49,515 bases of DNA from Sphaerotilus hippei (GTDB taxonomy: Bacteria > Pseudomonadota > Gammaproteobacteria > Burkholderiales > Burkholderiaceae_C). Made by a program: the position numbers and the translations under genes. This document shows, piece by piece, positions 46,697 through 49,379 of this stretch (within the stretch, counting starts at the first letter, position 1; the number at the start of each line of letters is the position of its first letter). The stretch spans positions 83,366-132,880 of the forward strand of contig NZ_QJJS01000012.1 of assembly GCF_003201595.1 (NCBI RefSeq), read 5' to 3'. The notes beneath the pieces were generated by a model. That model was not told where the DNA came from and made no database searches. It was given only the letters and a program-made list of their open reading frames with translations.

Positions 46697-46772
46697 GGGT
46701 TGTTAGCTCAGTTGGTAGAGCAGCGGACTTTTAATCCGTAGGTCGCAGGTTCGAGTCCCGCACAACCCACCA
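46697..46772 (+). tRNA. tRNA-Lys (anticodon TTT)
   Basis: 76 nt with acceptor stem GGGTTGT/ACAACCC, D arm TAGCTCAGTTGGTAGAGCA, anticodon loop CTTTTAA (TTT), T arm with GGTTCGAGTCC, and an encoded CCA. First gene of the cluster. Confidence 0.97.
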
Positions 46773-46820
46773 AATCTGTGATATAGTGGAAGGCTCCGGT
46801 TAAGTCGGAGTTGATAAGTG

Positions 46821-46896
46821 GGGCTCTTAGCTCAGTTGGTAGAGCAGCGGACTCTTAATCCGTAGGTCGAGTGTTCGAGTCACTCAGGGCCCACCA
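46821..46896 (+). tRNA. tRNA-Lys (anticodon CTT), copy 1
   Basis: 76 nt with acceptor GGGCTCT/AGGGCCC (one G-T pair), anticodon loop CTCTTAA (CTT), T-loop GTTCGAGTC and encoded CCA. It is separated from the first tRNA by 48 nt, and its body is closely related to it. Confidence 0.97.
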
Positions 46897-46958
46897 CCCA
46901 CACCAGTTTCATTTCGCCCTGGCGAACACGCTGAAAAGCGGATTCATCAGGACGAGAC

Positions 46959-47034
46959 GGGCTCTTAGCTCAGTTGGTAGAGCAGCGGACTCTTAATCCG
47001 TAGGTCGAGTGTTCGAGTCACTCAGGGCCCACCA
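46959..47034 (+). tRNA. tRNA-Lys (anticodon CTT), copy 2
   Basis: Identical over all 76 nt to the copy at 46821-46896, 62 nt downstream of it, with an unrelated spacer. It is the last tRNA before the terminator and so the copy nearest the accessory gene. Confidence 0.97.
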
Positions 47035-47052
47035 AAATTTAAGAACGAAAAC

Positions 47053-47082
47053 AAGGACTTAGCGAGAGCTAGGTCCTTTTTT
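47053..47082 (+). terminator. Rho-independent terminator of the tRNA-Lys cluster
   Basis: AAGGACTTAGC (47053-47063) pairs with GCTAGGTCCTT (47068-47078) around GAGA with one G-T pair, and T continues to 47082 (six T in all). It ends the tRNA transcript 18 nt past the last CCA. Confidence 0.93.
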
Positions 47083-47460
47083 CATTGGGCATCGGACTTT
47101 TGATGTCCGTTGCTCGGTGCATGTCCGGGGTGGGGAGGTCAGGTCCGCTTGAGGGGCTGGTCTTTCGGGCTCGTGGACCTGCTGCCGTGACGTCGTGCCC
47201 CGGGGTTTTGATGCTCCTGTGCCAGATGCGATGTGAGGCGGCGTCGACGAGGCACCACAGTGCGGTCTTGTCGGTCCTGGACGCACGAGGTCCGAGCGGA
47301 GCGGTGCGTTCCGCGTGTGACTTCGACACGTGCACTTCTGTGAGCCCCCAAACCCCCCCAAGGGCTTCAAGAACTTGAGTCGCACCGACGTTGGGTGGGG
47401 AGGAACCGCGCTCGGTCCTTCTCGATCCCTCCGTGCCGCTGTCTTGATCGTGCGGCTGCA

Positions 47461-47488
47461 GGCGTACTGAAGCGTTCCTTCCGTGCCG
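47461..47488. repeat. Direct repeat, left copy (flanks the NYN gene)
   Basis: A 28-nt segment starting GGCGTACTG and ending CCTTCCGTGCCG. It recurs at 49352-49379 with 25 of 28 positions identical (differences at A/G, T/A and G/A). The two copies are 1,891 bp apart and bracket the NYN-LOTUS gene. Confidence 0.7.
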
Positions 47489-47740: not shown

Positions 47741-49273
47741 ATGCGATCAGCCCTCTTCGTCGACTTCGACAATGTTTACACCGGACTGCGCAGCCTAAGC
47801 CCAGCCTACGCCGACACCTTCGCCGCAAATCCGTCGCGCTGGATGGCCTGGTTGACCGATGCTCTTCAGCGCCCAGCTGGTGCCGACGGCAGCGCGGCGC
47901 GGCGCATCTTGGTCCGGCGCTGCTATCTCAACCCGGTGGTTTACCAGCGCCATCGAATTGGCTTTAGCCGAGCCGGCTTCGAGATTGTCGATTGCCCACC
48001 CATGACGAAGGCCGGCAAGACCAGCACGGACATCCACATGGTGCTGGACATCATCGACGTCCTTCAGGCCAGCACCCGCTACGACGAGTTCATCGTCTTT
48101 TCGGCAGATGCGGACTTCACCCCGGTGCTGCGCAAGCTCCGGCGAGAGGACCGGCGAACGACGATCTTTGCGGCCGGTGCTACCTCCGCGTCCTACGACG
48201 CTTCCGCCGACCTGATCGTCGACTTGGACGCCTTCATCCATGATGCACTCGGCTTCGATGATGAAGAAGCTGCTCGCGAGACCCCCAATCTGGAAAGCCT
48301 GCTCGCGCAGGCCGAAGGGCTGGTTTGGGAGACGGTCGACAACGCAGACCAGCCCGTCCCATTGCCGGGACTGACCAAGATACTGGCCACGCGCATTCCG
48401 GCGCTGCCAGCAACTGAATGGGCCGGCAAAGGAACGTTCTTTGCGCTGCTCAAGAGCCTGCCGCTGGATCCACTGCGCATTGATCGAGAAGAGAACACCT
48501 TGCTCGATCCTCGCCGTTTGAATGGGCATGCAAACGGCACGACGGCCGCTAGAGTCGTCATGCCGTCAGGCTCGCCGAACAAATCGGACCCTCGGCAGGC
48601 TGCGCAGGTTGCCGACCAGCTTTCTCGGCTCATCGCCGACGAGGTGGCCGAGTCCAACCGCCCGATCGCGGTGGCGCGGCTCGCCCAACTCGCCCGTGCG
48701 GAGTTCCCCGGCATCGAGGTGACTTGGCTCGGTCACGGCAGCTGGAAGAAGCTGCTGGAGTCACTTCGCCCACCCCATGTCAAGATCGTCTGGCAGCAAT
48801 TGGCTGGCTGGGCGCTCGATCCCGATCGGCACACACTGGACCTAGCGGCGGCTGGCACGGTTGCCCACGTCTCAGCGGCCGACAGTGCGCGTGCCGCGAA
48901 GGTTTCCCGCCTGCTGGAAGCGGTTGACCTTCCTTTGTTGGAGCCTGCCAAGTACCGTGCACAACTGGAAGCGTTGTCCATGGCTCTGGACGACCAGCCC
49001 TACGTGCTGACCAACGTCACCAAGTCAATGCGCGACCACTGCCAGCGCTTGGGGCAGCCGGTCAGTCGTGAGCAATGCCTGCGGCTGTTGCGCACATTGG
49101 TGTACGACGGCTTCAACCCTGAAGCTGATCCCCACGGCTTCGAGGATCTTGTGGCGATGACCTGCGGGGTGATCGTCTCGGCTTGTGATCGTGAAGGTGT
49201 GCCTGTAGACGACGCCGACCGCTTCGAGCTTCTGCAGTGGATGACAGATCAAGAGGCTGAAGCGGTTGAGTGA
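47741..49273 (+). CDS. NYN-domain nuclease with two LOTUS/OST-HTH-like domains
   Basis: Predicted RNA-acting nuclease; substrate unknown. Seen: 510 residues. An N-terminal NYN (PIN-like) domain (1-155) carries the acidic set FVDFDN (Asp8, Asp10), KTSTDIHMVLD (Asp97) and SADADFTPVL (Asp123, Asp125). Two winged-helix LOTUS-like units follow, at about 186-260 (ILATRIPALPATEWAGKGTF, FALLKSLPLDPL) and about 283-366 (LAQLARAEFPGIEVTWLGHG, SWKKLLESL). The last 140 residues are helical (SRLLEAVDLPLLEPAKYRAQ ... LVAMTCGVIVSACDREGVPV) and match no domain I know. ATG 47741 begins right at the NYN strand; ATG 47693 would overlap the inverted repeat. No strong ribosome site. NYN-LOTUS architecture is established in bacteria, but function is mostly unknown. 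Confidence 0.85.
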   Translation: MRSALFVDFDNVYTGLRSLSPAYADTFAANPSRWMAWLTDALQRPAGADGSAARRILVRRCYLNPVVYQRHRIGFSRAGFEIVDCPPMTKAGKTSTDIHMVLDIIDVLQASTRYDEFIVFSADADFTPVLRKLRREDRRTTIFAAGATSASYDASADLIVDLDAFIHDALGFDDEEAARETPNLESLLAQAEGLVWETVDNADQPVPLPGLTKILATRIPALPATEWAGKGTFFALLKSLPLDPLRIDREENTLLDPRRLNGHANGTTAARVVMPSGSPNKSDPRQAAQVADQLSRLIADEVAESNRPIAVARLAQLARAEFPGIEVTWLGHGSWKKLLESLRPPHVKIVWQQLAGWALDPDRHTLDLAAAGTVAHVSAADSARAAKVSRLLEAVDLPLLEPAKYRAQLEALSMALDDQPYVLTNVTKSMRDHCQRLGQPVSREQCLRLLRTLVYDGFNPEADPHGFEDLVAMTCGVIVSACDREGVPVDDADRFELLQWMTDQEAEAVE

Positions 49274-49351: not shown

Positions 49352-49379
49352 GGCGTACTGGAGCGTACCTTCCGTACCG
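49352..49379. repeat. Direct repeat, right copy (flanks the NYN gene)
   Basis: The second copy of the 28-nt element at 47461-47488, with three mismatches. It lies 78 nt after the NYN gene stop codon, in non-coding DNA, in the same orientation. Confidence 0.7.

Follow-up and report, generated by a model that had tools for sequence, protein, structure and literature searches.

The question raised by this locus in Sphaerotilus hippei is why a gene for a probable RNA-cutting enzyme should stand directly downstream of three lysine tRNA genes, and whether that position says anything about what the enzyme cuts. The stretch of DNA analysed, referred to below as the window, is 49,515 nucleotides long and carries the gene close to its right end; the features discussed here are collected in Table 1. 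The original prediction was made from the sequence of the window.

Table 1. Features of the nuclease gene and its surroundings (window coordinates)
Feature	Coordinates	Strand	Evidence
tRNA-Lys (TTT)	46697..46772	+	ARAGORN; Rfam
tRNA-Lys (CTT)	46821..46896	+	ARAGORN; Rfam
tRNA-Lys (CTT), inferred integration target	46959..47034	+	ARAGORN; Rfam; 3' half recurs on contig C10
Attachment-site-like repeat: tRNA-Lys 3' half and 65 nt downstream	46990..47099	+	second copy G000:C10:2167-2276, 109/110 identical
28-nt direct repeat, left copy	47461..47488	+	brackets gene; two copies in genome
NYN, LOTUS-like, LOTUS-like, ROQ-like protein, 510 aa	47741..49273	+	ORF, relatives' alignment, Pfam, models
NYN nuclease domain, residues 2-161	47744..48223	+	PF01936 E 1.2e-16; acidic columns
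LOTUS-like unit 1, residues 184-262	48290..48526	+	hhalign vs OST-HTH 85-86%, decoys <=1.5%
LOTUS-like unit 2, residues 288-366	48602..48838	+	hhalign vs OST-HTH 71%, decoys <=3.4%; model
All-helical C-terminal domain, ROQ-like predicted fold, residues 379-505	48875..49255	+	models, Foldseek, helix order, conserved basic residues
28-nt direct repeat, right copy	49352..49379	+	89% like left copy
96-nt stretch common to ends of contigs C13 and C27	49420..49515		assembly break; probable start of multicopy element

The gene and its NYN nuclease domain

The gene is an open reading frame of 510 codons with an intact frame, and its start coincides with that of its relatives in the alignment. Pfam NYN (PF01936) is the sole convincing Pfam domain in the protein, matching with 61.9 bits against a curated cut-off of 24.2; two further matches, at E 0.15 and E 0.22, fall under the cut-off. 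The same Pfam scan gave no second nuclease domain above cut-off, and no RRM, RING, HEPN or zinc finger. PF01936 matches all 59 proteins of the family alignment, which consists of the protein itself and 58 relatives (34 two-unit proteins, including this one, and 25 one-unit proteins). Across these 59 proteins D8, N11, D97, D103, D123 and D125 are invariant, while D10 is aspartate in 55 and glutamate in four, bearing out the earlier claim of an intact acidic site.

In a whole-protein model (mean pLDDT 80.3, pTM 0.40) the best PDB match found by Foldseek is 2qip, and the NYN structure of mouse MARF1, 5yaa, appears at rank 11 (E 0.068). We infer from its domains that the protein binds and cleaves RNA. 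Several sequence matches to solved structures were judged to be due to chance; these include enterovirus VP1 chains (E 0.0015–0.012 with a single sequence, gone with a profile), yeast Gln-tRNA ligase (E 0.18), an adenylation protein (E 1.2) and TTHA1432 (E 0.96).

The LOTUS-like units

The nuclease domain is followed by two homologous winged helices, which match each other at 99.8% in hhalign (a comparison using 32 of the 34 two-unit rows, L101 and L109 being omitted). The Pfam OST-HTH model (PF12872) matched none of the 59 family proteins at E values up to 10, a search in which the HMMER filters drop most weak matches, and it matched nothing in the strain's own genome at E 0.001. An OST-HTH profile was built from loci in related genomes that pass Pfam's cut-off. 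With a first profile of 16 sequences hhalign gave 71–72% for unit 1, 37–56% for unit 2 and 31–45% for the one-unit relatives; with 30 sequences these values were 85–86%, 71% and 78–83%, respectively, and all units merged reached 91–92%. Winged-helix decoys of the ArsR and MarR families, fetched in the same way, scored at most 4.1% against the units, and the NYN and C-terminal parts of the protein scored below 1% against OST-HTH. Solved LOTUS domains were absent from the best 50 of 487 Foldseek matches of the whole-protein model and from the best 50 of 386 of a model of residues 281–510. The tandem units of the original prediction thus hold in profile comparison (71–91% overall), and because these matches exceed the decoys while the Pfam model misses, LOTUS homology of the two units is supported but remote.

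The C-terminal domain

The remainder of the protein, which the original prediction had left unassigned, contains a conserved domain (residues ~379–505) that is all-helical in the model and has no convincing Pfam match, either in this protein or in its family; structure prediction gives it a ROQ-like fold. The model of residues 281–510, built from 49 sequences including the protein's own, has a mean pLDDT of 91.6 and a pTM of 0.62. Against the PDB, Foldseek ranks 1–21 are all the ROQ domain of Roquin (prob 1.00, E 0.008–0.23), as repeated depositions rather than independent matches; the single-domain ROQ chains give prob 1.00, TM 0.54–0.60 and E 0.008–0.12. ROQ or Roquin entries make up 25 of the best 50 of 386 matches (E up to 10), the first other protein among these 50 being a spider-silk domain (E 0.34); an E value below 0.001 was not reached by any match. 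With the whole-protein model, ROQ ranks directly after the NYN structure 2qip. The aligned range of the ROQ match was reasoned from alignment length and helix order: the alignments span 120–149 columns, which exceeds a unit of ~79 residues, and the helix order fits, so the match is assigned to the C-terminal domain.

The available text of PMC4346627 gives the order of the ROQ fold as alpha1-alpha2-beta1-alpha3-alpha4-beta2-beta3-alpha5-alpha6-alpha7, the second and third strands being printed there as alpha2-alpha3 and described in the text as a beta-hairpin. Its authors call the fold new, with no other example in the PDB in 2015. The helix order of residues 379–505 in the model is the published one, and no beta strands are assigned in the C-terminal part of the model where ROQ has its strand and hairpin. 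At the level of sequence, the ROQ profile PF21206, searched in eight genomes at E up to 10, found nothing at the gene; its single match (E 0.41) lies elsewhere in one genome, and three of 14 control genomes also give matches. Similarly, a sequence profile of the C-terminal region found no ROQ chains among solved structures. Basic residues at positions 428, 431, 443 and 451 are conserved in 39–45 of the 49 sequences. The C-terminal domain, as modelled, therefore resembles ROQ in its predicted fold; homology is not proven.

Relatives and distribution

A scan of a genome collection yielded 76 loci, 40 of them two-unit as counted from length. Within the genus, the full-length two-unit form occurs in two of 13 genomes, one other genome having a fragment only, and the full-length genus relative is 71–74% identical. 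In a tree of the NYN domain (75 of 77 loci, L039 and L083 being dropped, with units labelled by length) the number of units changed at least six times, counted as forced changes. Two clean families divided by unit number are ruled out by these changes, and one-unit and two-unit proteins therefore form one family. The shortened L068 is labelled one-unit in this tree and two-unit in the neighbour scan below.

Relatives had no match in 50,697 phage records, and 219 stretches of viral contigs matched the search pattern, none of them a relative. Nine of 72,556 plasmid records matched, one of which spanned 98% of the query; the gene table of that stretch contains no defence gene. Synteny with the MsbA-TolB-Pal-YbgF-ThiF genes of the window was considered and rejected: outside the strain's own genome, the only matches are TolB-Pal at L082, 5.6 kb beyond the NYN gene there, and MsbA, weakly, at L132.

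The tRNA-Lys array and a probable island

The three tRNA-Lys genes described in front of the nuclease gene were recovered by ARAGORN (46697–47034). The region of the array is matched in all 13 genomes of the genus, this one included, and the 12 others carry 1–4 tRNA-Lys genes each, the single-gene case lying at a contig edge; the array is ancestral in the genus. The DNA 3' of it comprises several different gene sets among these 12 genomes, and none of them has the nuclease gene downstream of the array in the stretch read (up to ~8 kb, once less than 1 kb). By eye, the genes found there (L150–L161) include argininosuccinate synthase-like, ClpB-like, LysR-like and TonB-system genes, among others.

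Islands integrated at tRNA genes have a repeat of the tRNA 3' end at both ends and a lower G+C content inside. Both features are found here. The 110-nt repeat that begins within the third tRNA gene has a copy on contig C10, flanked on one side by 2.2 kb at 53% G+C and on the other by DNA at 70% G+C with genes that look by eye to be of siderophore type; the nuclease gene itself has 62.5% G+C compared with 70.3% in window positions 1–46600, so that G+C is lower inside both visible ends. No integrase was seen among the ORFs read in the two visible ends of the putative island, the interior of which is unassembled. The earlier description of the gene as lying in accessory DNA is upheld. Given an ancestral array and, on another contig, a 110-nt copy of the third tRNA's 3' half with the DNA that follows it, the gene looks like tRNA-proximal cargo carried by an island that entered at tRNA-Lys. 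A second, independent example is found in Methyloversatilis (L065), where the homologue lies together with an integrase (Pfam 7.7e-14) and the 3' half of a tRNA-Lys within 4.5 kb. The other end of the present island (L178, positions 1–2166, G000:C10; 53% G+C) holds two minus-strand ORFs, 132 and 350 aa long, of no recognised function, and the first 216 nt of L178 recur at the end of contig C22.

The special link to tRNA-Lys that had been proposed does not survive these comparisons. A tRNA of any kind is found in nine of 77 loci, some of the stretches being short, and within 1 kb in only three, and adjacency to tRNA is therefore not a trait of the family. As an indication of substrate it is rejected in view of an ancestral array that also bears the attachment-site repeat. 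The 28-nt repeats were correctly described as bracketing the gene. A search of the genome allowing as many as 3 mismatches finds these two copies and no more, and they were rejected as the ends of a mobile element on account of that number and of a 16-nt core present in 7 of 240 loci, all from this genome.

Genes next to the relatives

Loci for the neighbour survey were chosen by similarity to the query. The two-unit scan comprised 31 loci, leaving out L038, L039, L043, L049, L051, L054 and L064 as near-duplicate or short, and L101 and L109 as distant Acidobacteriota. Their 118 neighbouring proteins (two per side where present, 100–1500 aa) were searched with Pfam; 25 of 90 families are listed, and because this listing names no members the defence cases were tied to their loci by scans of single proteins.

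A strong defence gene can be named in seven of the 31 two-unit loci. In five of these it lies directly upstream on the same strand: PglZ followed by BrxL, which ends 25 nt before the gene, at L042; the C-terminal part of BrxL, 13 nt upstream, at L044; a BrxHI-type helicase, 145 nt upstream, at L060, matched by the BrxHI model over its full length and also SngC-like; Dsr1, 62 nt upstream, at L067; and Abi_2, 156 nt upstream, at L069, with HsdM two genes further up. The remaining two lie near type I methyltransferase genes: at L062 HsdM is the second gene upstream, the intervening gene having a marginal PADLOC match only, and at L036 HsdM is on the opposite strand. A BrxC/BrxD match in the scan presumably represents the next gene of L060. 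Just outside the scanned set, L043 has gene lengths similar to L042 and the same gap. The seven cases fall into three separate parts of the NYN tree. BREX genes are present in three of the 31 loci (L042, L044 and L060), and the nuclease gene does not regularly accompany BREX.

Weaker candidates comprise HNH_2 (L050), an SNF2 helicase (L073), a recombinase (L061) and, after L063, a large protein resembling helicases. PADLOC, run on ten single neighbours, gave one marginal match and no match at 1e-10 for four (those of L068, L070, L080 and L088). In the other 24 of the 31 loci no strong defence gene could be named, and several have core genes; the nearest two-unit clade (Aquabacterium and Ideonella) sits mostly at core-like loci, judged by eye. 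No defence gene is visible beside the window's own copy, where the contig ends 242 nt after the gene; this is also the right end of the window, and the isolation of the gene can be judged on the left only.

As a contrast, 113 neighbours of 30 one-unit loci were searched with Pfam. Among the 25 of 110 families listed, where single weaker matches may be hidden, AAA_21 occurs three times, AAA_15 twice and RhuM once, and there are no BREX or restriction families. Read by eye, one-unit relatives lie mostly among housekeeping, metabolic and regulatory genes. Pfam on 85 direct neighbours of both kinds gave one member of N6_Mtase and two of BrxL, explained by L036, L042 and L044; PADLOC on the same 85 gave 177 families (BrxL 2, viperin 1 and others), which were not counted since the output is not tied to loci. 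No partner family recurs beside the gene across many loci. With respect to random core loci, the original prediction had expected homologues to lie elsewhere. That expectation failed in part: most of the one-unit loci read by eye and several two-unit loci are core-like.

The homologues at L061 and L063 lie close to gene pairs that look by eye like ParB/RepB (the two-unit scan lists two RepB members), L061 also having a large serine recombinase, and this context is perhaps one kind of mobile element. The closest relative (L034, 6545–7925) lies 3' of a cold-shock-like gene (by eye) and a gene for a trypsin-like protease (Trypsin_2), for which PADLOC offers the candidate PDC-S45 at E 5e-22.

Possible function and alternatives

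The reading we favour, to which we would give an even chance, is that the protein is an RNase guided by structured RNA and recruited by defence islands. In this model, the NYN domain would act as a metal-dependent RNA endonuclease tethered to three putative RNA-binding modules, two LOTUS-like and one ROQ-like. Structured RNA, be it a stem-loop, double-stranded or G-rich, would be bound by these modules and brought to the active site of the NYN domain. The gene would be island cargo at tRNA-Lys in this strain, and in related bacteria would be carried repeatedly on mobile DNA or behind defence operons. Its likeliest role would be that of an RNA-directed arm of antiviral defence, which may cut phage transcripts, or host RNA so that the infected cell is stalled. 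That relatives recur behind defence operons of unrelated kinds suggests a common downstream task, such as destruction of phage or host RNA. The role in defence raised by the original prediction may thus be real, some relatives adjoining BREX, Dsr1, Abi or restriction genes; any such role is one that we infer.

The main alternative is a general nuclease of RNA turnover or regulation which has spread laterally and rides on islands outside defence. The mostly metabolic and regulatory surroundings of the one-unit relatives and the core-like loci of the Aquabacterium and Ideonella clade speak in its favour, as do the changes in unit number that unite both kinds of protein in one family; the available text of a 2010 survey (PMC2848206) likewise saw no conserved linkage to RNA-processing systems. 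Against it speak the tight same-strand position behind several different defence operons and the presence of the full-length two-unit form in two of 13 genus genomes; we regard this alternative as plausible, if on balance doubtful.

PrrC stands near type I methyltransferase genes. By analogy with it, the protein could be an anticodon nuclease directed at tRNA-Lys, as the adjoining array and the type I methyltransferase genes near some relatives might suggest; this is very improbable given an ancestral array bearing an attachment-site repeat, the 68 of 77 loci with no tRNA in the stretch examined and a Pfam scan with no other nuclease domain above cut-off. It is just as hard to credit that the gene is decaying island cargo with no present function: it does adjoin a multicopy stretch at an assembly break, but its frame is intact, its acidic residues are conserved and a full-length relative persists in the genus.

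A bolder extension of the structure-guided RNase would make the C-terminal domain a true bacterial relative of ROQ, and the protein a prokaryotic all-in-one counterpart of the NYN nucleases and LOTUS or ROQ RNA binders that are separate in animals (MARF1, Regnase-1 and Roquin). BREX, Dsr1 and restriction loci would have taken it up as a mobile module for cutting RNA. We consider this extension unlikely. If it were true, the origin of these animal RNA-decay parts would lie in antiviral defence.

Relation to known systems

Bacterial proteins with NYN and OST-HTH domains are already known. Those described as LK-nuclease (DUF88/NYN) with OST-HTH by Anantharaman, Zhang and Aravind (2010; PMC2848206) likewise begin with a nuclease of NYN type and continue with one or two LOTUS/OST-HTH units, and 2qip is a structure named in that paper. 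In its available text they are possibly standalone RNA-degrading enzymes, with no conserved RNA-processing linkage. Unlike them, the present family is missed throughout by the OST-HTH Pfam model, has an extra conserved C-terminal domain (which may be drawn in a figure of that paper) and has defence-operon neighbours in some relatives.

As far as the sources available describe them, the animal proteins MARF1 and Limkain b1 likewise combine an NYN-like endoribonuclease with several LOTUS domains; the protein studied here is bacterial, has no RRM by Pfam and has the additional C-terminal domain. The ROQ domain of Roquin, a mammalian immune regulator, as described in the available text of PMC4346627, resembles residues 379–505 in predicted helix order and Foldseek match. 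Roquin and Regnase-1 divide a ROQ part and an NYN/PIN-type nuclease, both kinds of which would here be in one chain; in contrast to Roquin, this protein is without RING, HEPN and zinc finger (Pfam), detectable sequence similarity or assigned beta strands.

Judging by the searches made, three points are new: that the C-terminal domain can be read as ROQ-like, that some relatives adjoin defence operons, and how the tRNA-Lys site is explained. No earlier description of any of the three was found in the titles and abstract openings of the open-access literature, nor do those found name an RNA target for bacterial NYN-LOTUS proteins. The defence-operon neighbours supply a concrete setting for these proteins, which were hitherto without informative neighbours in the available text of PMC2848206. 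If the C-terminal domain is ROQ-like, the ROQ fold would also exist in a family of bacterial proteins, fused there to a nuclease of the type that in animals acts on stem-loop RNAs.

The contig end

The last 96 nt of the window also occur at the ends of contigs C13 and C27. The assembly was therefore probably interrupted by a multicopy element that begins immediately beyond the nuclease gene. On C13 (L239; G000:C13:121000-127351), a long CRISPR-like array, which we take to be type I-F, runs from position 1145 to near the contig end, with 85 copies of a 28-nt repeat at a period of ~60 nt, and ends a little short of that contig's copy of the 96-nt stretch.
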